From assembly GCA_002898875.1 (NCBI GenBank), contig BEIC01000004.1, forward strand, positions 1-36,748: 36,748 nt of DNA, read 5' to 3'. The notes under the pieces were generated by a model that had not been told where the DNA came from, made no database searches, and saw nothing but the letters and a program-made list of their open reading frames with translations. This stretch comes from a bacterium HR26 (GTDB lineage: Bacteria; Chloroflexota; Chloroflexia; Thermomicrobiales; Thermomicrobiaceae). Shown one piece after another: positions 3,887 to 14,620 of the stretch. How positions within the stretch are numbered: position 1 is the first letter of the stretch; each line of letters starts with the position of its first letter. The translations under genes were made by a program, and so were the position numbers.

Positions 3887-4051
3887 AGGTGAGCCGGCGT
3901 TGGTGGGTGAGCGCGGGGGGGTCAGACCCGCGCACGACGGCGCCGGCAGACCGGAAGGCATGCCAAGAGCCCAAAGCGATCGCACCTCTGCTATCATGCC
4001 ACCACCTAAACGACCTGCCATACTCGTTAGGCCTCGCAAGGGAGGATGCCG

Positions 4052-7000
4052 ATGTCAGACGGGGAACCGGCCAATGAGGCCCAGACGCTGCGCATCCGAC
4101 TGCTCGGCGGTTTTCGTGTCTCGGTTGGGTCGCGCGTAGTCGAGGATCCTGAGTGGCGGCTACGGAAGGCCAAGAGCCTGGTCAAGCTGCTCACGCTGGC
4201 GTCCGACCACCGCCTGCACCGCGAGCAGGTGATGGACCTTCTCTGGCCAGAGCTCGACCCAGACGCGGCCGCGAATAACCTCCACAAGATCCTCCACATC
4301 GCCCGGCGCGCACTCGAGCCCAACCTCGCCCCCGGTTCACCCTCAGCGTACCTCCGCCTGCAGAAGGATTGGCTCGTCCTTCAGTGCTCGGGGACGCCTT
4401 GGATTGATGCCGAGGCGTTTGAGGCCGCCGCAGCCGTCGCCCGGCGCACCCGGGATCCCGCAGATTATCGATCAGCGCTTGAGCTCTACACGGGCGACCT
4501 GCTGCCTGAGGATCGCTATGAGGAGTGGGCAGCGACCCGGCGCGATGCGTTGCGCCTCGAGTATCTCGCCCTACTTGGCGAACTCGCCCGACTGCACGAG
4601 GCACGCGGTGAGTACGGGCTCGCTATCGAGGCACTCCGGCGGATCGTGGCCGATGATCCAGCCCACGAGGAGGCACAAACAGCGCTCATGCGCCTCTATG
4701 CGCTGGCTGGCCAGCGCCACCAAGCCCTTCGCCAGTACGAGCAACTCCGAGAGGCGCTCCGGCGCGAACTCGACACGGAGCCTCATGTGACAAGCCAGCG
4801 TCTCTACCATGACATCGTGGCCGGGCGGTTCCCTGCAACACCACCGGCGATGCCTGCGCTCCTGCACGGCGATCTACCCTCCGCTCCACTCGTCGGCCGA
4901 GATGAAGAGCTCGAAGCTCTCGAGGACATCCTTGATGCGCTGTTCAGCGGGCAGGGTAGGTTCGTGCTCCTGGCAGGGGAGGCAGGCGTAGGGAAGAGTC
5001 GACTGGCAGCCGAGATCGCCGAGCGAGTCCGCCGACGTGGCGGCCACGTGCTCGTGGGCGCAAGTTACGAGCAGGAAGGGCAAGTGCCGTACGGGCCGTT
5101 CGTCGAGGCTCTGGGGCGAGTCGCCACCAGCTTGGGGCCGACGGATCTGCGTGGCATGCTCGGCGCGGCTGCCCTCCCGCTCTTCTCTCTCGCCCCGGGC
5201 GCCGCGGTCGCGCTTGCCTGGGACGCGCCACCAGCGCTGGCAGGCCCACCTGATCGCCAGCGTCTCTTCGCCGCCATCGCCGACTTCCTCGCCCGGCTGG
5301 CCGCCCAGGCCCCGGTCCTGTTCGTGCTCGACGATCTGCATTTCGCTGACGAGGCGACCCTGCAACTGCTGCACTACCTGGTTCGCACCGGGCGGGACAA
5401 GCCACTGCTCTTTCTGGGGACCTTCCGACCCGAGGAGGCCGGGCCGGCTGATCCGCTCAGGCAGTTCGTGGCCACGCTGCGCCGTGAGCGATTGGTTACC
5501 CCCTTCGAGCTTCGGCGTCTCGATGCCCGAGAGAGCGAGTTGCTCGTGGCAACACTCCTGGGCAGCGATCCTATCGATCGCGCGGTCTTCGAGACGATCT
5601 ATGGACTGGCTGAGGGAAACCCTTTCTATACCGAGGAGGCGGTGCAGGCCCTGCGTGAGCGCGGCCAACTCGAGCGTGTCGACGGACGGTGGCGGCTGCG
5701 GTCCGAAGTAGCCGCCGTGCCCGGCCCGCTGGCGGATCTCCTCGCTGCTCGTCTCGAACGGCTCCGGCCCAACGCACGTCAGGTTCTCAGACTGGCTGCG
5801 GTTGTCGGCCGGGAGATCCCGTACACGCTGCTGCGTGCGACCAGCGATCTGTCTGAGCAGGACTTGCTTGACGCCCTCGACGAGTGCCTTGCCCGGCGCG
5901 TCCTCGAAGAATCAACTGACGGCTATCGGTTTACCCACCCGCTGCAGCGCACGGCCATCTACGATGGGCTGAGCCGGGCACGGCGGGCTCACCTCCATGG
6001 GAGTGTCGCAAAGGCCCTCGAGCGGCTCTACCACAGCCAGCTAGCGGAACACGCCGAGACGCTCGCGCACCACTATAGCTTGAGCGACGTACCAGGTCGG
6101 GCCGTTCCCCATCTCGTCACAGCCGGTGATCGGGCTGCGAGTGTCTACGCGAACGAGACAGCGATGAGTTACTACCGGCGCGCCCTCGAGCTGTTGTCTG
6201 CGGCTGGCGCTCCGGCGAGCCCGTCGGTACCGGCAGCCGACCTGTGGGAGAAGATAGGTGACCTGTGGGCACTCATCGGCGAGGCCGGTCAGGACGTTGC
6301 AGCCTACCGCATGGCGGTCGCCATAATGGAGAAGGCGGCGGAGCCTGCCGTCTGCGCACGGCTTCATCGAAAGGCGGCATACGCGTGCCTGTCTCAGCAC
6401 GATAGCGCCGGGGCCGAGCGCCACCTCGGCGCAGCGGAGATGCTCTTGAGCGACCGACCGGATCCGGCTGAGCAAGGGCGGCTCGCGCGCGTACGCGCGC
6501 AGTGGTTCTGGGAGCATGGCCGCCACGCCGAGGCGCTGGAGACCGCTCAAGCGAGCCTGGAGCTGGCTGAGCGCTATGGCGCACCGGCCGACGTCGCGGC
6601 TGCCTACGAAACGATGGCACTGGTATTCCACTCTTGTGGAGAGTGGAAGCGGGGCCTGCACTATGAGATTCAGCACCTGGGGGCTGCTGCCGATCAGCCC
6701 CAACTTGCAAGCGTCTTCGATGTCCATCACTGACTGGCCGAGTATCACCTGTATGGTGACACGTCGTACGAAGAAGTCGAGGAGTACGCGCGCCGGACGC
6801 TCGACCTGGCTCTTCGGATGGGCGCGCGGCGCGCCCAGGCGCTGGCTTGTTGCCTGCTCGGCGAAACCCTCCTGCTGCGGGGCCGCTGGGACGAGGCCGC
6901 GGGGTATCTCCGACGCAGCATCGAGCTGCATCAGGCACTGGGGGCGAAGAGCGGTGAGGCGCTCACCTGGCAGCGGCTGGGCGAGCTCGCCATCTATCGA

Positions 7001-7618
7001 GGCGATGCCACCGCAGCCGACAAATGCGTGCAGCGCGGGCTGGCGCTCGCCGCTGAGGCACCGATGGCCGCCCATCTCATGGGTCGCCTCTACGCGACAG
7101 CCGCGCTCGATGCCCTGGAGCAGGGCAACCTAGCGGCGGCTGCTCGGGCGATCGGAGCGGCGAGCGCGGCTGCCGAACGCTACGGCGACTGCCCCACCTG
7201 CGGCGCACTTCTTCATCCGGTTGCCGCCGAGGTCTACGCCCGGCTCGGCGACAAGGACCGGGCGGAGAAGTGGGCACAGGCGGCCGAGCGTGTCGCCGGC
7301 CACTGGGAGAGCGGTGCCTGGCAGGCGATGGCGGAGGTGGCACACGCAGTGGTTGCGCCCAGCGAGCAGGCGGTAGCGCGCTTCGTCAGGGCTGCTCAAC
7401 TCTTCGAGCGGCTCGGCCAGCCGTTTCAGGCTGCACGCTGTCTGGCTCAGGCCGGGCTGATCCATGTTGAGCGCGGTGAGCGGGAGGAGGCCAGGGGCCG
7501 ACTCGAGCGGGCGCTGGCCATCTTCCACGAGATCGGGGCGCCCCGAGCTGCCAAGCGGGTGTACCAGGCACTGGCACGACTGCGCGCTGGTACGAGTTCT
7601 GCACACGAGGTGACCTGA
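4052..7618 (+). CDS. SARP/BTAD-AAA ATPase-TPR transcriptional regulator with in-frame TGA
   Basis: Read through one TGA at 6731-6733, this is a 1188-residue AfsR/SARP-type regulator. It has an OmpR-like winged helix (LLGGFRVSVG..., residues about 14-95), a BTAD helical domain (to about 260), an NTPase module with Walker A GEAGVGKS and Walker B-like VLFVLDDLH, and a long TPR-like C-terminal half. The stop falls at residue 894, in FDVHH-TGA-LAEYHLYGD. The same frame continues without another stop for 295 residues of normal TPR-like sequence, including a CPTC pair, so the two pieces are one gene. From memory, related regulators have Cys at this place, making selenocysteine possible (hairpin at 6742-6762). 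The alternatives are a nonsense mutation or a sequencing error, leaving an 893-residue protein. ATG 4052 has GGAGG at 4041-4045; ATG 4046 is too close to it. Confidence 0.75.
6731..6762 (+). other. In-frame TGA with SECIS-like hairpin in the regulator
   Basis: After the TGA (6731-6733), TCACC (6745-6749) pairs with GGTGA (6755-6759) around loop TGTAT. One A-C mismatch then separates GT (6742-6743) pairing with AC (6761-6762). The loop begins 16 bases after the TGA and has G as its second base, which matches the published general rule for bacterial SECIS elements (loop 16-37 nt after UGA, G in the first two loop positions). The stem is short, so this alone is not proof. Confidence 0.4.
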
Positions 7619-7645: not shown

Positions 7646-7725
7646 CTTACCGCCAGGGAATGAAGTCCCCTGGTAAGTGTCAGAGAAGAGGAGCCGCCTA
7701 TGATCTGAATGAGATCGTAGGCGGC
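7646..7725 (+). promoter_or_regulatory. Tandem hairpins between regulator and small downstream gene
   Basis: Hairpin 1 pairs CCAGGG (7653-7658) with CCCTGG (7668-7673), extended by CTTA/TAAG (7646-7649, 7674-7677). Hairpin 2 is a 14-bp stem with one G-T pair: GCCGCCTATGATCT (7693-7706) with the arm at 7712-7725, loop GAATG. No T-run follows. It ends only about 10 bases before the Shine-Dalgarno TGGAGG (7736-7741) of the next gene. It may be a processing or translation-control element, or a terminator without U-tract. Confidence 0.5.
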
Positions 7726-7749
7726 GTCCAGTTCTTGGAGGCTGCATCG

Positions 7750-7986
7750 ATGGCAAGGTCATATGGTTCGTTTATCGTGCGCTATTGGCTCCTCGATGGC
7801 AACCAAGAGCGCATCGAGATCGAGCACATGCAGACTGGGGACCGGGTGCGCGTCGCCTCGCTCGACGAAGGAGTCGCTTGGATAACAGCACGGGTACGCC
7901 GGCCGGCGAGTGGCGGTGGTCGGGCACCTCCTGACACCACAGCGCAGGGAGAGTCCAGGGAGAAGGGTCGTCAACCGTGCGTGTAG
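7750..7986 (+). CDS. Small hypothetical protein in the selenoprotein cluster
   Basis: A 78-residue protein of unknown function, with no Cys except near the C-terminus and no membrane segment. The first 45 residues look like a compact beta-rich domain (SFIVRYWLLDGNQERIEIEHMQTGDRVRV), and the tail is low-complexity and charged. ATG 7750 is preceded by TGGAGG at 7736-7741. The frame is open upstream to 7660, but that part overlaps the hairpins and lacks a start signal. It ends 12 bases before the earliest start of the thioredoxin-like selenoprotein gene, so co-transcription is likely. Confidence 0.6.
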   Translation: MARSYGSFIVRYWLLDGNQERIEIEHMQTGDRVRVASLDEGVAWITARVRRPASGGGRAPPDTTAQGESREKGRQPCV

Positions 7987-7998
7987 GTCAGCTCAGCC

Positions 7999-8520
7999 AT
8001 GGGGGTGTGCGTGGTGGAAGCACTCGCGTATCAGATAGCTCATCAGCCGATGATCGGCGAGCTTGCGCCAGCGTTCAGCCTGCTGGATGTGCGTGGCAAG
8101 CTCCATTCACTCGCTGACCAGCGAGGTAAGTTCGTTGTGATCCACTTTGGCACGAGCTGGTGACCATTCTGCAATGCGGAGGCTCCGCATCTCAATGCAG
8201 TGCAACAGCACTACCAGGACCGCGCGGTGGAGGTGGTCGTGATCAATGTGAAGGAGTCCAGGACGAAGGCGGCGCGATGGGGTCGTGCCCTGGGTTTCAC
8301 CTGCCCAGTGCTCCTCGATCTCGACGGTCAGGTGGCCGTGAGTTACGCGCCAGAGGGGGTGTTGCCCGACCTACCACGTGATCAAATACCGATCGCATCG
8401 AACCTCATCATCGATCGCGAGGGTCGGATTCAGTTTTACTCGCTCCTGGACTCGGTTCACTTCGATGCCCGGCTCGTGGCGCTGCGCGCCCGGCTCGAAG
8501 AGCTACTGGCAACGGGGTAG
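7999..8520 (+). CDS. Thioredoxin-fold (TlpA/redoxin-like) selenoprotein, TGA = Sec55
   Basis: Predicted 173-residue thiol/selenol oxidoreductase of the TlpA/AhpC-TSA-like superfamily. The frame is interrupted by one TGA at 8161-8163, exactly at the first position of the redox motif: VIHFGTSW-TGA-PFCNAEAPHL, i.e. U55-P-F-C58 instead of CxxC. Both sides are good thioredoxin-fold sequence: upstream GELAPAFSLLDVRGKLHSL, downstream VVVINVKE, a possible cis-Pro region (DQIPIASNLIIDREGRIQFY) and a final helix. A strong hairpin follows the TGA at the right distance. With standard decoding, the product would end at residue 54, before the resolving Cys. There is no signal peptide. The start is uncertain: ATG 7999, or GTG 8011/8014 behind GGGGGTG. 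The iodothyronine-deiodinase-like group (FGSxTUPPF) is a more distant possibility. Confidence 0.82.
8161..8200 (+). other. Selenocysteine TGA and bacterial SECIS-like hairpin
   Basis: The TGA (8161-8163) is followed by a two-part stem. The lower stem is CTGCA (8169-8173) with TGCAG (8196-8200). The upper stem is a perfect 7-bp ATGCGGA (8174-8180) with TCCGCAT (8184-8190). The apical loop is GGC (8181-8183), and a 5-base bulge CTCAA lies on the 3' side. The loop starts 17 bases after the TGA and begins with G. Spacing and loop are close to the fdhF-type bacterial SECIS that SelB recognises. Confidence 0.78.
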
Positions 8521-8707: not shown

Positions 8708-9310
8708 ATGGCGTACACACTGGAAGGACGACTGCTCGAGGTGTGTACCTGCAACGTCATCTGCCCATGCTGGGTCGGCGAGGATCCCGATGGCGGTACC
8801 TGCGACGGGGTGATCGCTTGGCACATTGACCGGGGCGAGATCAACGGCGGGGACGTCTCGAACCGCACCATCGCGGTAGCGGCGCATATCCCCGGCAACG
8901 TGCTCAAGGGGAACTGGCGAGCAGCCGTGTACCTGGACGAGCGGGCAACGCCAGAGCAGGAGGATGCAATCCTGGCTGTCTGGACGGGCAAGCTGGGTGG
9001 ACCGGTAGCTGACCTCGTCCAGTTGGTGGGGGAGATCGCCGGCCTGGAGCGGGTGCCGATCTTGTTCGATGTTGAGGATGGTAAAGGCCGGCTGGCTATT
9101 GGCGCGGCCGTGGAGGCAGAGCTGATGCCGCTGCAAGGGGCGACTGGTCAGCCGACGACGTTGCACGACAGCGTGTTCTCGACCATCCCGGGCTCGCCCG
9201 CGTACGTGAGCAAGGCGTCGACCTATCGGCTGAACGCCCCCAACTATGGGTTCACCATCGACCTGCAGGGCCACAACGCGGTTCAGGGAACCTTCCGCTT
9301 TGAAGCGTAA
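8708..9310 (+). CDS. DUF1326 domain-containing protein
   Basis: A 200-residue soluble protein recognised as DUF1326 (COG5588-like) from the N-terminal cysteine cluster LEVCTCNVICPCWVGEDP and the following CDGVIAWHIDRGEI segment. The five clustered Cys are what one would expect of a metal- or thiol-handling protein, but no activity is established. The ATG is supported by AAGGAGG at 8695-8701. It is followed by the DUF2182 gene, its common neighbour. The 187-bp gap after the selenoprotein gene shows no other gene; a GGAGGGAGGTG stretch near 8605 could be the ribosome site of an unrecognised short peptide. Confidence 0.85.
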   Translation: MAYTLEGRLLEVCTCNVICPCWVGEDPDGGTCDGVIAWHIDRGEINGGDVSNRTIAVAAHIPGNVLKGNWRAAVYLDERATPEQEDAILAVWTGKLGGPVADLVQLVGEIAGLERVPILFDVEDGKGRLAIGAAVEAELMPLQGATGQPTTLHDSVFSTIPGSPAYVSKASTYRLNAPNYGFTIDLQGHNAVQGTFRFEA

Positions 9311-9371: not shown

Positions 9372-9395
9372 CCTCCGCCGATGGAGGTGTGGCCC

Positions 9396-10175
9396 ATGAT
9401 GCCTATCGCCGCGCGTGAGCGCGCCGCCGCCGAACGAAGACTGTTTCCGCTACTGCTCGGGGCGCTCATCGTCCTGGCGTGGTTGGTGCTCGCAGTCTGG
9501 GGCCGCTCGCCCTACAGCCGCTATCTGAGCCACCACGAGCTGGCTGAGGTGCCGGAAAGTAGCCTGCTCTTACTCGTCTTCATCGGGGGCTGGCTGCTGA
9601 TGACCGCCGCGATGATGCTGCCGACGAGCCTGCCGCTGGTCCTGCTGTTTCGGCGACTCACGCGCGCACGTCCGGACAGCGGTCGCCTGATGCTCTTGCT
9701 CCTAACGGGCTACCTCGGCGCCTGGACTGGTTTCGGGTTGCTGGTCGCTGTCGGGGACGGATTTCTGCACCGGCTCGTCGAGCACAGTACCTGGCTGGAA
9801 GCCAATGCGCGCCTGTTGAGCACGGCCACACTGGCGCTTGCGGGGATCTACCAGTTCACTCCGCTCAAGTACCACTGCCTGGACAAATGCCGCTCGCCGT
9901 TCAGCTTTCTCTCGGAGTATTGGCGTGGTCGCGACGCGGCGCTGCAGGCGGTGCGGCTGGGCGCACACCACGGGGCGTATTGCGTGGGCTGCTGCTGGTC
10001 GCTCATGTTGGTGATATTCGCTGTCGGCGTGGGCAACCTGGGGTGGATGCTGCTGCTCGCGGCGGTGATGGGCGCCGAGAAGAACCTCTCCTGGGGACGC
10101 CGGCTCAGCGCACCCCTAGGGATCGTCTTGATCGCCTCGGGAGCGGTGACGGCCTACCAGACCGGTCTTCCTTGA
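9396..10175 (+). CDS. DUF2182 predicted metal-binding integral membrane protein
   Basis: A 259-residue multi-pass membrane protein of the DUF2182 (COG5486-like) family. An N-terminal hydrophobic helix (LLGALIVLAWLVLAVWG) is followed by about six more. Diagnostic motifs are MTAAMMLPTSLPLV, YQFTPLKYHCLDKCRSP (CxxxC) and HHGAYCVGCCWSLM (CVGCC), then GAEKN in the last third. These Cys/His motifs at membrane edges suggest metal or thiol chemistry, but the function is unknown. Start ATG 9396 is chosen because GGAGGTG (9383-9389) lies 6 bases upstream; the upstream in-frame ATG at 9381 overlaps that site. It follows DUF1326, as in many genomes. Confidence 0.85.
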   Translation: MMPIAARERAAAERRLFPLLLGALIVLAWLVLAVWGRSPYSRYLSHHELAEVPESSLLLLVFIGGWLLMTAAMMLPTSLPLVLLFRRLTRARPDSGRLMLLLLTGYLGAWTGFGLLVAVGDGFLHRLVEHSTWLEANARLLSTATLALAGIYQFTPLKYHCLDKCRSPFSFLSEYWRGRDAALQAVRLGAHHGAYCVGCCWSLMLVIFAVGVGNLGWMLLLAAVMGAEKNLSWGRRLSAPLGIVLIASGAVTAYQTGLP

Positions 10176-10226
10176 GAACGGGTAGGCCAGCGACGTCCCG
10201 CTCGGCTCAATAAACTGGGGGTGACC

Positions 10227-10652
10227 ATGAATGCAGGTGAGGCGTCTAACGAAGTCCTCCAGGTGCTACCGTCTGCGCCGGTGGAGGTACGAACAGGTGG
10301 GACAGCCGAGGCGCGGGTGACCGTGCTGGTGAAGGATGGCTACCATGTGCAGGCCAACCCAGCGAGCGGGGATTTCCTGGTGCCGCTCCGCCTGGAGTTG
10401 AGACCGCAGGACGGAGTGCGACCGGGTAGGCCGATCTACCCGCCCGGGCAGCCGTACCGCCTGCCGGGGATGGAGAGCGACTGGATGACCTATGAAGGGC
10501 GCATCGAGATCGTCGTTCCACTCGTCGCTGACGCCTCCGCACGGAGGGGAGTGCGCTGCCTGGCGGGGGTGCTCCACTACCAGGCATGCGACGCGCGAAC
10601 CTGCCTCTTCCCGGCGTCGGTGCCTGTCAACCTCACGGTGAAGGTGGTCTGA
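10227..10652 (+). CDS. DsbD-alpha-like thiol:disulfide interchange domain protein
   Basis: A 141-residue stand-alone immunoglobulin-like domain resembling the N-terminal (alpha) domain of DsbD/ScsB. Features are KDGYHVQANPASGDFLVPLRLEL, YPPGQPYRLPG, an edge strand with IEIVVPL, and LHYQACDARTCLFPASVPVNL, which contains the Cys pair (C-x4-C) that in DsbD passes electrons to periplasmic partners. No signal peptide or membrane segment is seen from ATG 10227 (or GTG 10221), which is odd for a domain that normally works outside the cytoplasm. It is the last gene of the redox cluster. A thiol-relay role with the upstream selenoprotein is inferred from co-location only. Confidence 0.75.
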   Translation: MNAGEASNEVLQVLPSAPVEVRTGGTAEARVTVLVKDGYHVQANPASGDFLVPLRLELRPQDGVRPGRPIYPPGQPYRLPGMESDWMTYEGRIEIVVPLVADASARRGVRCLAGVLHYQACDARTCLFPASVPVNLTVKVV

Positions 10653-10817: not shown

Positions 10818-10935
10818 GCGCTCATCCAGAGTGGTGGAGGGAACGGCCCGAAGAAGCCCGGCAACCAGCGCGCACGCGCCAGGTGCCAATGCCGGCGGAG
10901 CGAGGCTCCGCACGATGAGCGCGGTAAGACAGAAG
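10818..10935 (+). promoter_or_regulatory. SAM-I (S-box) riboswitch upstream of metX
   Basis: The S-box core is recognisable. P1 is GCGCTCAT (10818-10825) with ATGAGCGC (10915-10922). Then come CAGAGTGGTGGAGGGA, GGCCCGAAGAAGCCCGGCAACC-like segments (conserved P2/kink-turn region, 10845-10866) and GGTGCCAATGCC (P3-P4 region, 10882-10893). The adjacent terminator means SAM binding should switch off transcription of the methionine gene metX. Confidence 0.9.
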
Positions 10936-11106: not shown

Positions 11107-12222
11107 ATGACCACAACCACCGCCCCATGTACTGTCCAGATCGCCCGGATCGCGACGCCGGAGCACCCGTTCATCACCGAGCACGGAGCCGTGCTCCCGG
11201 TCGTCGAGATCGCCTACGAGACCTGGGGCACGCTGAGCCCGCAGCGCGACAACGTCGTCCTGATCGCCCACGCGCTGACCGGCAGCAGCCACGTGACACC
11301 GCACTTCCCTGGCGATGCCCCCGGCTGGTGGGACCCGATGGTCGGATCGGGCTGCCCCATCGACACCGACCGCTACTTCGTAATCTGTCCGAACATGCTC
11401 GGGAGTTGCTACGGCTCCACCGGCCCGCGCTCGATCGACCCGGCGACCGGCCGCCGCTACAACCTCCGCTTCCCGCACATCACTGTCCGCGATATTGTCG
11501 CCACGCAAGCCCGGCTGCTCGACCAGCTCGGCATTGAGCGGCTACACGCAGTGCTCGGCGGCTCGCTCGGCGGGATGCAGGCGCTGGAGTGGGCAGCGAT
11601 GTTCCCCGAGCGTGTGGAGCGCGTCATCCCAATCGCCGTCGGCGGCCGCTTCAGCGATCAAGGCATCGCCTACAACGAGGTGCAGCGGCGGGCCATTATG
11701 CTCGACCCGGCCTGGAAGAACGGCGAGTACGAGGACGGCGAGGGCCCGGCAACCGGCCTGGCCATCGCCCGGATGCTGGGCGTAATCACCTACCAGTCCG
11801 ACGAGCTGATGACTGCCCGCTTCAACCGGCGTGAGGAGGCCCGCTACACCGCCTGGCCGGAATTCCTCTGCCGCTACGATGTCGAGGGCTACCTGCACTA
11901 CCAGGGCGAGAAGCTGGTACGTCGCTTCGACGCTAACAGCTACCTGTACCTCACCCGGGCCATGGACTCGCACGACCTGGGGCGTGGACGCGGCAGCTAC
12001 GAGGCGGGCCTAGCCCGGATCCGTGCTCGCACGCTCGCCATCGGCATCCGCTCGGACATCCTCTTCTGGCCGGCCCAGGTGCGCGACCTGGTCGAGCGGC
12101 TGCGGCGGTTGGGGAAGGAGGCCGAGTACTGGGAGCTCGATTCGCCCAACGGGCACGACGCCTTCCTCAAGGACTTCGCCCAGATCGGCCCGGTGATCCG
12201 GGAGTTCCTCGACCGGCCGTAA
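11107..12222 (+). CDS. metX: Homoserine O-acetyltransferase
   Basis: Alpha/beta-hydrolase enzyme that acylates homoserine (acetyl-CoA or succinyl-CoA; the donor cannot be decided here) at the branch to methionine. It has 371 residues, the usual length. Visible signatures are ALTGSSH (oxyanion region), nucleophile elbow GGSLGGMQALEW, and the C-terminal NGHDAFL with the catalytic His; the catalytic Asp is expected near SDILFWP. The ATG is preceded by GGAGGGAG at 11094-11101. It is controlled by the SAM riboswitch at 10818-10961, consistent with end-product repression, and lies convergent with hom 16 bases downstream. Confidence 0.93.
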   Translation: MTTTTAPCTVQIARIATPEHPFITEHGAVLPVVEIAYETWGTLSPQRDNVVLIAHALTGSSHVTPHFPGDAPGWWDPMVGSGCPIDTDRYFVICPNMLGSCYGSTGPRSIDPATGRRYNLRFPHITVRDIVATQARLLDQLGIERLHAVLGGSLGGMQALEWAAMFPERVERVIPIAVGGRFSDQGIAYNEVQRRAIMLDPAWKNGEYEDGEGPATGLAIARMLGVITYQSDELMTARFNRREEARYTAWPEFLCRYDVEGYLHYQGEKLVRRFDANSYLYLTRAMDSHDLGRGRGSYEAGLARIRARTLAIGIRSDILFWPAQVRDLVERLRRLGKEAEYWELDSPNGHDAFLKDFAQIGPVIREFLDRP

Positions 12223-12238: not shown

Positions 12239-13252
12239 TCAAGTCCGGCTCATTTGGGGCACTATATGTGGCGTCAGGGCAGCGCCGAAGCGGGCAGCGT
12301 CCAGGATGTCGCTGACGATAGCACTCGCGGTCGGCAGCGGGCCGGCCCCTTGCCCGTAGAGCACCACCGGCCCAACCCGATCGCCGGTGATCTCCACCGC
12401 GTTGAAGTTCAGCCGCACGTGAGCCAGCAGGTGATCACCCGGCACGAACTCCGGCGCGACCCGCAGTCGCCACTCCTCTCCGTCTAGCTCCGCGCCGGCG
12501 ATCAGCTTGATCGCGCCGCCCCTCGCCCGCGCCTCGGCAACTTGCTCCGGCGTCACCCCGGTGATACCGGTGCGGTCGACCTGCTCCGGGCGGATGTGCC
12601 GTCCGGCCGCCAGCGAGGCCAGGATCGCCAGCTTGTAGGCCGCGTCGTAGCCCTCGACGTCGGCCGTCGGGTCGGGCTCGGCATAGCCGAGCCGCTGAGC
12701 CTCGCGGAGCGCCTCGGCGTAGGCGGTTCTCCGCTCGGCCATCTGGGTGAGGATGTAGTTCGTGGTGCCGTTGACGATGCCGCGGATCCGTGTCACCCGG
12801 TTGTCGGCGAGAATCTGGCGCAGGCTGGCCATCAGCGGGATGCCGCCGCCGACACTGGCCTCGAAGAGCAGCGCGCGGCCGGACGCTCGTGCCGCGGCGG
12901 CAAGCTCGGCGAAGTTTTTCGCCAGCGCCTCTTTATTCGCGGTGACGACGTGTTTTCCCGCCTCCAGGGAGCGGCGCAGGTAGGTCGCAGCCGGCTCCTC
13001 ACCGCCCATCGCCTCGACCACCACGTCCACCCGCTCGTCCCCGACCACCTCCTCGATCTCGGTCGTCGCTACCTCGGGCGGCAGTCCAGCCTGGACGACG
13101 CGCTCGCGCGAGCGGGCCAGCGCCCGCCGCACGACCAGGCGGATGCCAGTGCGGGCTTCGATGACGTCGCCCTGCTCGGTGATTGTCCTGGCCACGGCTC
13201 CGCCCACGATACCGACTCCCAGCAGCGCGATTCCGACCTCCCGGCTCGCCAT
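12239..13252 (-). CDS. hom: Homoserine dehydrogenase without ACT domain
   Basis: Reduces aspartate semialdehyde to homoserine, the shared precursor of threonine and methionine. Of 337 residues, the N-terminal Rossmann motif LLGVGIVGGAV, ANKEALA, GIVNGTTNYIL and the catalytic-region GYAEPDPTADVEGYDAAYKLAILA are all present. The protein ends soon after the catalytic domain; the C-terminal ACT domain that mediates threonine feedback in longer (about 430-residue) enzymes is absent. Start ATG at 13252 has GGGAGGAG directly upstream on this strand; the open frame to 13771 runs back through the divergent asd leader and is not coding. It is convergent with metX and divergent from asd. Confidence 0.92.
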   Translation of the reverse strand: MASREVGIALLGVGIVGGAVARTITEQGDVIEARTGIRLVVRRALARSRERVVQAGLPPEVATTEIEEVVGDERVDVVVEAMGGEEPAATYLRRSLEAGKHVVTANKEALAKNFAELAAAARASGRALLFEASVGGGIPLMASLRQILADNRVTRIRGIVNGTTNYILTQMAERRTAYAEALREAQRLGYAEPDPTADVEGYDAAYKLAILASLAAGRHIRPEQVDRTGITGVTPEQVAEARARGGAIKLIAGAELDGEEWRLRVAPEFVPGDHLLAHVRLNFNAVEITGDRVGPVVLYGQGAGPLPTASAIVSDILDAARFGAALTPHIVPQMSRT

Positions 13253-13287
13253 GCGCTCCTCCCTCCCACAGCTCGGCTCGCAGTCGC

Positions 13288-13316
13288 TTGACGCCTCTCC
13301 GGTGCGCTGGTAGAGT
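13288..13316 (+). promoter_or_regulatory. Promoter of the asd leader
   Basis: TTGACG (13288-13293) and TAGAGT (13311-13316) are 17 bases apart. This places the start of transcription near 13323, upstream of the Thr leader peptide and attenuator. Confidence 0.65.
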
Positions 13317-13409
13317 GTCTGCAAGGCGCTGACAGCGTACGGGCTGTTGGTGTCGCAGGCAAGCAGGGAGAGCGGACAGGCCGTGAGGCGACCCGCACAG
13401 CGTACCGGG

Positions 13410-13460
13410 ATGGTGACGACTACTACGCCCGCCGGCGTACGGGCGGGCAGCGCCACCTGA
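13410..13460 (+). CDS. Threonine-rich attenuator leader peptide for asd
   Basis: A 16-codon reading frame MVTTTTPAGVRAGSAT with four consecutive Thr codons (ACG ACT ACT ACG, 13416-13427) and a fifth as the last codon. It lies between a promoter and a strong terminator, ahead of aspartate-semialdehyde dehydrogenase, a threonine-pathway gene. The RNA can form three exclusive helices. 1:2 is CGCCCG (13426-13431) with CGGGCG (13440-13445). 2:3 is GCCGGCGTAC (13431-13440) with GTACGCCGGC (13482-13491), a perfect 10 bp. 3:4 is the terminator at 13487-13512. Stalling at Thr codons would free 13431-13440 to form the antiterminator. No strong Shine-Dalgarno is visible just before the ATG (only ACCGGG), the one weak point. 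Confidence 0.8.
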   Translation: MVTTTTPAGVRAGSAT

Positions 13461-13486
13461 TGCGCTGAATCCCGATAGGCAGTACG

Positions 13487-13521
13487 CCGGCAGAGGTGAG
13501 TGCCTCTGCCGGTTTTGTTTT
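13487..13521 (+). terminator. Attenuator terminator before asd
   Basis: CCGGCAGAGG (13487-13496) pairs perfectly with CCTCTGCCGG (13503-13512), loop TGAGTG, followed by TTTTGTTTT. It lies 44 bases before the asd start, so it must be overcome for asd to be expressed. The first five bases are shared with the antiterminator helix. Confidence 0.92.
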
Positions 13522-13564
13522 GGCCGGCGGCCAGTAGCCGTGGCCGGGAAGGAGGAAAGGACCC

Positions 13565-14620
13565 GTGAGCGATCGGATCGACGTCGCGATTCTGGGCGCG
13601 ACGGGCAGCGTGGGGCAGCGATTCGTGCAGCTCCTCGCCGGTCATCCCTGGTTCCGGGTGGCCGAGCTGGTCGGCAGCGAGCGCTCGGCCGGCAAGCCGT
13701 ATCAGGAGGCATGCGACTGGCGGGTCAGCAGCGCCCCGCCGGACGAGGTGCGCGGCCTCACGGTCAAGCATTACGAGGAGCCGCTGCGGAGCACCGTCGT
13801 CTTCTCAGCCCTTCCAGGAGGGCTGGCCGGCCCGATCGAGGAGGGACTGGCAGCCGAAGGAAAGCGGGTCTTCACCAACGCCCGCGATCACCGGATGGAC
13901 CCCGATGTGCCGCTGATGATCCCCGAGGTGAACCCCGACCATGTTGCTGCGATCGAGCGCCAGCGCCGCGAGCGCGGCTGGCGCGAGGGCTTCATCGTCG
14001 CCAATCCCAACTGCTCGACGATCCACCTCGTGCTGGCGCTCAAGCCGATCCAGGACGCGTTCGGCATCGAGCAGGGGATCGTCACCACGCTCCAAGCGGC
14101 CTCGGGAGCCGGCTATCCGGGCGTGCCGTCGCTCGACCTGATCGACAACGTCATCCCCTACATCGGCGGCGAGGAGGAGAAGATCGAGAGCGAGTCACGC
14201 AAGATCCTGGGACACTGGACAGATGGCCGTTTCGAGGACGCACCCCTCACGTTGAGCGCCCACTGCAACCGGGTACCGGTGCGCGACGGCCACATGGAGA
14301 CGGTCAGCCTGAAGCTGGCACAGCCGGCTCCGCCCGAAGAGGTCGCCCGGGTACTCGCCGAGTTTCGCGCCCGGCCACAGGAACTCGGCCTGCCGACGGC
14401 GCCGGCTCGCCCGGTCGTCGTGCTCGACCAGCCCGACCGGCCACAGCCCGTGCTCGACCGCGACGTGGAGCGGGGCATGGCATCGGTCGTCGGCCGGGTG
14501 CGCCCCTGCCCGGTGTTCGACGTCCGCTTCGTGGTGCTGGGGCACAACACGATCCGCGGCGCTGCCGGCGCCTCTGTCTTGAATGCCGAACTGCTCTTCC
14601 GCGAGGGCTGGCTCGGCTGA
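13565..14620 (+). CDS. asd: Aspartate-semialdehyde dehydrogenase
   Basis: NADPH-dependent conversion of aspartyl phosphate to aspartate semialdehyde, the precursor of Thr, Met, Ile and Lys. It has 351 residues. The N-terminal ILGATGSVGQRF is the nucleotide-binding motif; ANPNCSTIHLVLALKP carries the catalytic Cys; later SAHCNRVPVRDGHMETVS supplies the substrate His/Arg region. The pattern (NPNCSTI; a long LQAASGAGYPG segment) resembles the archaeal/fungal-type ASADH more than the classic enterobacterial one. Start GTG 13565 follows AAGGAGG (13549-13555). It is transcribed through the Thr attenuator and diverges from hom. Confidence 0.93.
   Translation: MSDRIDVAILGATGSVGQRFVQLLAGHPWFRVAELVGSERSAGKPYQEACDWRVSSAPPDEVRGLTVKHYEEPLRSTVVFSALPGGLAGPIEEGLAAEGKRVFTNARDHRMDPDVPLMIPEVNPDHVAAIERQRRERGWREGFIVANPNCSTIHLVLALKPIQDAFGIEQGIVTTLQAASGAGYPGVPSLDLIDNVIPYIGGEEEKIESESRKILGHWTDGRFEDAPLTLSAHCNRVPVRDGHMETVSLKLAQPAPPEEVARVLAEFRARPQELGLPTAPARPVVVLDQPDRPQPVLDRDVERGMASVVGRVRPCPVFDVRFVVLGHNTIRGAAGASVLNAELLFREGWLG

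Follow-up and report, generated by a model that had tools for sequence, protein, structure and literature searches.

Most of the selenoproteins known from prokaryotes are enzymes or small redox proteins, and no DNA-binding transcription factor is found among the 119 prokaryotic families of a 2026 inventory (PMC13188914), whose Table 1 contains no SARP, BTAD or TPR regulator. The sole prokaryotic selenoprotein that metagenome inventories list as a putative regulator belongs to the FmdB family and carries a UxxU motif (PMC13188914, PMC9312934). It has a different domain from the regulator described here (TIGR02605, a small CxxC_CxxC protein) and lacks the winged helix, BTAD and TPRs. HrsM/LysR_Se is a selenium-responsive transcription regulator of selenium genes which is not described as a selenoprotein (PMC9312934); its fold is unrelated to that of our regulator, and the likeness lies in the link to selenium metabolism. 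Searching PMC9312934 and PMC12013277 for relevant words gave no match for a selenocysteine-containing regulator of this kind. The regulator represents a new family of selenoproteins and is, to our knowledge, the first selenoprotein that is a DNA-binding transcription regulator. This priority is not certain since the literature search, in which we recognised no paper on a selenocysteine BTAD or SARP protein, covered neither preprints nor most subscription journals. SqrR, a small repressor of the ArsR type, has no sequence relation to our regulator. In sensors of reactive sulfur or redox state, DNA binding is altered by reversible modification of a thiol. A likeness to thiol-based reactive sulfur sensors of the SqrR type (PMC9995734) is proposed, as the regulator occurs beside rhodanese, metallo-beta-lactamase (MBL)-fold and DsrE genes.

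SARP transcription regulators start with an OmpR-type winged helix and a BTAD domain, and they activate promoters by binding to direct repeats in them. Large SARPs of the AfsR type carry an ATPase followed by TPRs, and the same arrangement is seen in a regulator encoded in the window, by which we mean the whole 36,748-nucleotide stretch analyzed. The gene occupies positions 4046-7618 of the forward strand (1190 codons, internal TGA included), with a likely start at ATG 4052, which is better spaced than ATG 4046 behind the ribosome-binding site AAGGGAGG. Judged from its sequence and predicted structure, the product is a large AfsR-like SARP with a winged helix and BTAD, an AAA_16 ATPase and a C-terminal TPR domain, in line with the SARP/ATPase/TPR regulator named by the original prediction. 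The AlphaFold2 model of residues 1-275 (4046-4870; Pfam BTAD 2.3e-17; pLDDT 92.0) has AfsR (8k60, 8hvr) and EmbR (2ff4, 2fez) as top Foldseek matches in the PDB, which identifies this part as a SARP DNA-binding and activation module. The winged helix and BTAD fold are thus shared with AfsR of Streptomyces (Foldseek E 7.5e-11) and, at the level of fold, with EmbR of Mycobacterium. Residues 281-456 (4886-5413) form an AAA_16/STAND-type ATPase with the P-loop GEAGVGKS (Pfam AAA_16 1.1e-31). The C-terminal 525 residues (661-1185; 6026-7600) are modelled as an all-helical TPR superhelix (pLDDT 92.6), presumed to be the sensor domain; Foldseek returned only generic TPR proteins for it, with no known-ligand sensor among the matches. 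Unlike AfsR-type SARPs, the regulator has an ATPase of the AAA_16 type and a TPR domain bearing a set of Sec/Cys896, CxxC and histidines. The NCBIfam AfsR model scores only 36.8 bits against a cut-off of 1430, no NCBIfam model describes the regulator, and no selenoprotein model matches it.

The TPR domain is interrupted by an in-frame TGA at 6731-6733, codon 896 counted from ATG 4046 and codon 894 from ATG 4052. The frame continues for 294 sense codons and ends at TGA 7616-7618 without a further stop. Pfam places BTAD, AAA_16 and TPR before the internal TGA and TPR_12, TPR_MalT and TPR_2 after it. These results agree with the original prediction, which had described a long open frame of normal TPR sequence past the TGA at 6731 and a truncated form of 893 residues, a length that corresponds to the start at ATG 4052. 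It had also stated that related regulators have cysteine at this column and pointed to a CPTC pair further on. Both points hold, with every non-TGA homologue carrying Cys and the CPTC (C1049 and C1052; 7190-7201) invariant in an alignment of 37 sequences.

Homologues were recovered at increasing distance. A class-wide search yielded a full-length homologue from another family, 38% identical, with TGA at the equal column (FDVHL-U-LWEYHLYGD), and one shorter homologue with Cys. After the phylum-wide search, 19 sequences were available, seven with TGA, 12 with Cys and none with another residue. We then scanned the genomes of 84,980 species with the UGA column masked as X, so that the scan could not favour Cys or Sec, and obtained 39 loci, 19 with TGA and 20 with Cys. 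Together with the window and two further genomes (G436 and G425), the 19 scan loci, which include that of the sister species (L132), give 22 genomes with TGA; by contig and sequence, L126, L127, L111 and L109 belong to genomes G264, G082, G208 and G189. Sec forms were read in Chloroflexota-type bacteria, one Acidobacteria MAG and one Deltaproteobacteria/Myxococcota MAG; most of these relatives, like the window itself, are known from uncultured MAGs. Cys forms occur in Actinomycetota (Arthrobacter, Streptomyces, Lentzea, Kribbella, Gaiella and others), in part of the Chloroflexota and in one Nitrospirae MAG. Neither Trp nor an unrelated sense codon occurs at this column in any homologue read. 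A TGA shared at one column by 22 genomes, with Cys in the other relatives read, is far beyond chance as a pattern of sequence conservation. In a tree of 46 rows inferred with the UGA column left out, well-supported branches force at least five exchanges between Sec and Cys. No viral relatives of the regulator were found. The family is probably under-counted, since pipelines which treat TGA as a stop record these genes as truncated.

Retention of the TGA at one site in 22 species of at least three phyla, with Cys in the other relatives, makes insertion of selenocysteine almost certain. Sequencing error is excluded by the presence of the TGA in more than 20 independent assemblies. We are highly confident that selenocysteine is inserted at UGA 896, aided by a hairpin on its 3' side, an assignment made without protein or selenium-incorporation data. 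The selenocysteine reading of the original prediction is strongly supported by the Sec/Cys column, the conserved TGA and selection downstream of it, and the sensing role it gave to this residue (redox, metal or sulfur), along with gating by selenium supply, remains inference. Our main reading, with a probability of roughly 0.85, is that the gene encodes a full-length SARP activator in which UGA is read as Sec; that this activator acts as a thiol/selenol sensor switching adjacent redox and thiol genes is the less certain part of the reading.

According to this reading, decoding of UGA 896 would give the full-length activator, and Sec/Cys896, the invariant CxxC and histidines would most likely form a thiol/selenol reactive site, although their proximity in three dimensions was not measured. 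Residues invariant across the 37-sequence alignment are H862, H894, Sec/Cys896, H901, H1010, C1049 and C1052, and C1049 and C1052 could be the partner of Sec896. Reaction with an oxidant, with persulfide or other reactive sulfur species, or with a soft metal(loid) would change the conformation of the TPR and ATPase domains and, with it, the activity of the DNA-binding domain. In the window, the adjacent genes switched on in this way would be those of a selenocysteine-containing thioredoxin-like protein, a DUF1326 protein, PpoB2 and a DsbD_N protein. We infer the sensor step from invariant residues and gene context, the ligand is not fixed, and DNA binding and activation are unshown; we consider its chances about even. 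Orthologous BTAD-TPR regulators of actinobacteria, for example in Pseudarthrobacter (L106) and Streptomyces (L119), have the same invariant residues, with 55-58% identity to the window's regulator in the N-terminal module and about 50% in the TPR domain. They have Cys in place of Sec and have lost the hairpin, and their cultured hosts have neither selA nor selB. An ATPase P-loop was not found in these Cys forms, which suggests that direct control of the DNA-binding module by the TPR domain is possible.

Downstream of the regulator, on the same strand, lie a small ORF and then the four genes named above. The small ORF (7660-7986, probable start ATG 7750, MARSYGSFIVRYWLLDG...) is 86% identical in the sister species and has no Pfam match. 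The thioredoxin-like gene (8005-8520) encodes a TlpA/ResA-like (AhpC-TSA-like) selenoprotein with the motif SWUPFC and its UGA at 8161-8163; it is the clear selenoprotein that the original prediction had placed 1.4 kb downstream. Its TGA is kept in the sister species, where the protein is 95% identical, and among 31 genomes searched a strong match was found only in the window's and the sister's. This selenoprotein is a probable member of the regulon. Next are genes for a DUF1326 protein (8708-9310; Pfam 5.6e-55), a copper chaperone-like PpoB2 (DUF2182) protein (9381-10175; 6.7e-66) and a DsbD_N domain protein (10221-10652; 6.3e-8), the last of which likely closes the redox cluster. A 97% identical DUF1326 ortholog occurs together with the regulator within the genus only in G000 and G003. 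The regulator, the Sec thioredoxin and the close DUF1326 are all present in two species of the genus and all absent from two near-complete others, and this joint presence and absence indicates that the three behave as a unit. We found no papers on DUF1326 or DUF2182 in the literature searched, which again lacked preprints and most subscription journals.

The stretch that separates the regulator's stop codon from the genes after it contains a near-perfect inverted repeat (7693-7727; GCCGCCTATGATC-TGAATGA-GATCGTAGGCGGC), whose arms are perfect in the sister species (GCCGCCTACGATC...GATCGTAGGCGGC). This repeat is possibly a terminator or an operator. DUF1326 genes were also seen repeatedly at a distance of no more than a few kb from other AAA_16/TPR regulators (G010:C200, G015:C362 and C451, G030:C183), which suggests a broader pairing of such regulators with DUF1326 in relatives.

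Regulator neighbours vary between lineages and therefore leave the sensed signal undecided. In the Anaerolineae-type Sec clade, downstream genes encode OsmC (10 loci) and an ArsM-like methyltransferase (family present in 14 loci), and 13 copies of the latter in 12 loci have a TGA of their own at a UxxG site. UxxG is the site listed for arsenite methyltransferase selenoproteins (PMC13188914). Actinobacterial neighbours include an ABM protein, MBL-rhodanese fusions, a two-domain rhodanese, a pyridine nucleotide-disulfide oxidoreductase and a peroxiredoxin. ABM was counted in 10 loci, MBL/rhodanese in nine and peroxiredoxin in four. BTAD relatives annotated on plasmids adjoin genes for DsrE, TusA, DUF4242 and a SAM methyltransferase in Nocardioides, where the column was read as Cys (DAHLCLAEYYL), and genes for a peroxiredoxin and an FAD oxidoreductase in Pelagibacterium. 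Judged from gene context only, and without comparison to random neighbourhoods, the common theme appears to be the handling of thiols, sulfane sulfur and oxidants.

TGA-interrupted ArsM-like genes (LWTGUIAGALLEAEL) near the regulator were noted at L127, L128, L130, L131, L134, L135, L136, L143 and other loci, and standard annotation would truncate them. At L108, an ArsM-like gene with the UxxG TGA accompanies a Cys-form regulator. A DsrE-like gene with an in-frame TGA (IUGGCGKARG; L130:12609-12968) was observed near a Sec methyltransferase.

The same residues and neighbours could also point to a metal site, structural or sensory, that binds Zn, Cu or As(III)/Hg and is not a redox switch. The seven invariant histidine, cysteine and Sec/Cys positions would suit such a site, and both the ArsM-like methyltransferase and the copper chaperone-like PpoB2 are encoded nearby. 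However, regulators rarely use Sec as a metal ligand, and many of the neighbours are thiol/sulfur redox genes; we consider this explanation unlikely, though not to be set aside. It is also conceivable that Sec896 serves mainly as a gate for selenium supply, whereby the activator would be full-length only when charged Sec-tRNA is available and would then switch on neighbouring selenoprotein genes. The Sec thioredoxin of the window, the 13 ArsM-like copies with UxxG and the TGA-containing DsrE-like gene are consistent with this. Yet many lineages, hosts without Sec machinery among them, have Cys and no random residue at the column, which argues for a chemical function of residue 896, and gating could remain a mere side effect. 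As the main role of Sec896, gating therefore seems improbable to us. A weaker version, in which a Sec-based sensor is additionally gated by selenium supply at the level of the operon, is inferred and not shown, and we regard it as possible and on balance doubtful. Because Sec is required for the regulator itself, selenium-free cells would make only the truncated form of 893 or 895 residues.

Natural SelC-like tRNAs that insert Cys have been described, and the finding of Cys at this column elsewhere means that Cys insertion would be workable here. That a variant tRNA or code makes UGA specify Cys or Trp is nevertheless very improbable given the machinery of the hosts. The window's genome, which is 81% complete, contains a canonical tRNA-Sec (anticodon tca, 75.3 bits) and selA (528 bits); selB and selD were not found in this incomplete assembly. 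The sister species has selB and a Sec-type selD, itself a TGA gene. The tRNA-Sec and sel genes, the TGA-containing selD and the neighbouring TGA-containing thioredoxin independently support UGA as Sec in the genus. At least one of selA and selB is present in every searched genome with the Sec form, and almost all of these genomes carry the two together. Ordinary genes here end in UGA, and no homologue has Trp at the column; a code change of TGA to Trp was ruled out by the presence of Cys there.

A different SARP regulator, which may deserve attention for a role in selenium metabolism, directly adjoins selA in two genomes of the genus (G000 C74:7936-10571 and G003 C97:4538-7175; L146 and L145). 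This paralog has BTAD and an NB-ARC-like ATPase, and in G003 also a LuxR-type HTH. It was rejected as the same regulator as it lacks the Sec/CxxC sensor, and is regarded as a separate one.

The only close ortholog of the window's regulator in the genus is that of the sister species (G003, equal to L132, a Thermomicrobiaceae MAG), with 92% nucleotide identity. It keeps the TGA codon for codon within 58 identical bases. By the Nei-Gojobori method, dN/dS between the two is 0.188 before the TGA and 0.175 after it, with dS of 0.17 and 0.34. The low downstream ratio and the preserved frame indicate that the segment past the TGA is coding and constrained. A build-up of frameshifts in sister strains, named by the original prediction as a result that would refute it, is not seen in this species, and purifying selection is found instead. 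A decaying gene whose TGA is a true stop is hardly tenable and was ruled out by dN/dS and phyletic conservation: although TGA is also the normal stop of the gene (7616-7618) and the 895-residue product would retain both the DNA-binding module and the ATPase, purifying selection is as strong after the internal TGA as before it, this TGA stands at one column in 22 genomes, and across phyla the downstream half keeps its CxxC, His and Gly positions unchanged.

Bacterial SECIS elements are hairpins just 3' of the UGA with a small apical loop and an early G, at 16-37 nt. In the window, a SECIS-like hairpin at 6743-6761 pairs UAUCACC (6743-6749) with GGUGACA (6755-6761) around the loop UGUAU (6750-6754). 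The original prediction had a hairpin with the loop TGTAT starting 16 nt past the TGA; it is the loop that lies at this distance, and not the stem. The 20 Sec members share the pattern UGA-(9 nt)-UAUCACC-UGUAU/C-GGUGAU/C, with the loop starting 16 nt past the UGA and G at its second position. This putative element fits the bacterial consensus. The stem is encoded by the peptide YHLYGD, and all 20 Sec members use TAT and GGT in it, compared with 44% TAT for Tyr and 19% GGT for Gly in the same genes. Among 18 Cys members, only three have TAT and two (L108 and L140) have GGT; the latter two may have lost Sec recently. Helix cells are paired at 94% in Sec members versus 60% in 16 Cys members, in none of which the A17-U27 pair is formed, so that the hairpin is broken there. 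The comparison of codon frequencies ignores shared ancestry. As stand-alone evidence we rejected the hairpin: its folding energy in the window is unremarkable (z -0.95) and there is no compensatory covariation, the core pairs being invariant. The original prediction thus overstated it as a single-sequence argument for Sec, and it counts only through codon choice across species, which does support it.

If Sec is indeed the sensing residue, this type of sensor would be categorically new. Sec in the sensor domain of a regulator would mean that a chemistry useful in catalysis also serves gene regulation. We propose only tentatively, at somewhat less than even odds, that the regulator founds a class of transcriptional sensors based on selenium and spread over at least three phyla, in which an encoded Sec, repeatedly exchanged with Cys, would be the reactive residue. 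Their full-length form would be conditional on selenium, so that selenium status would be coupled to adjacent genes for thiol and sulfur stress. Sec and Cys versions of one regulator, with at least five exchanges between them, constitute a natural comparison set for what Sec adds to sensing.

Two of the loci (L140 and L143) belong to one Anaerolineales genome (G533), which has two copies of the regulator, one with Cys that retains the SECIS-like hairpin and one with Sec that shows additional in-frame TGAs and may be frameshifted. This pair possibly represents a replacement of Sec by Cys under way. Downstream of the redox cluster in the window, a SAM riboswitch (RF00162, 83 bits; 10819-10921, forward strand) precedes an abhydrolase gene at 11107-12222. 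The latter probably encodes a homoserine acyltransferase and adjoins a homoserine dehydrogenase gene on the reverse strand (12239-13771).
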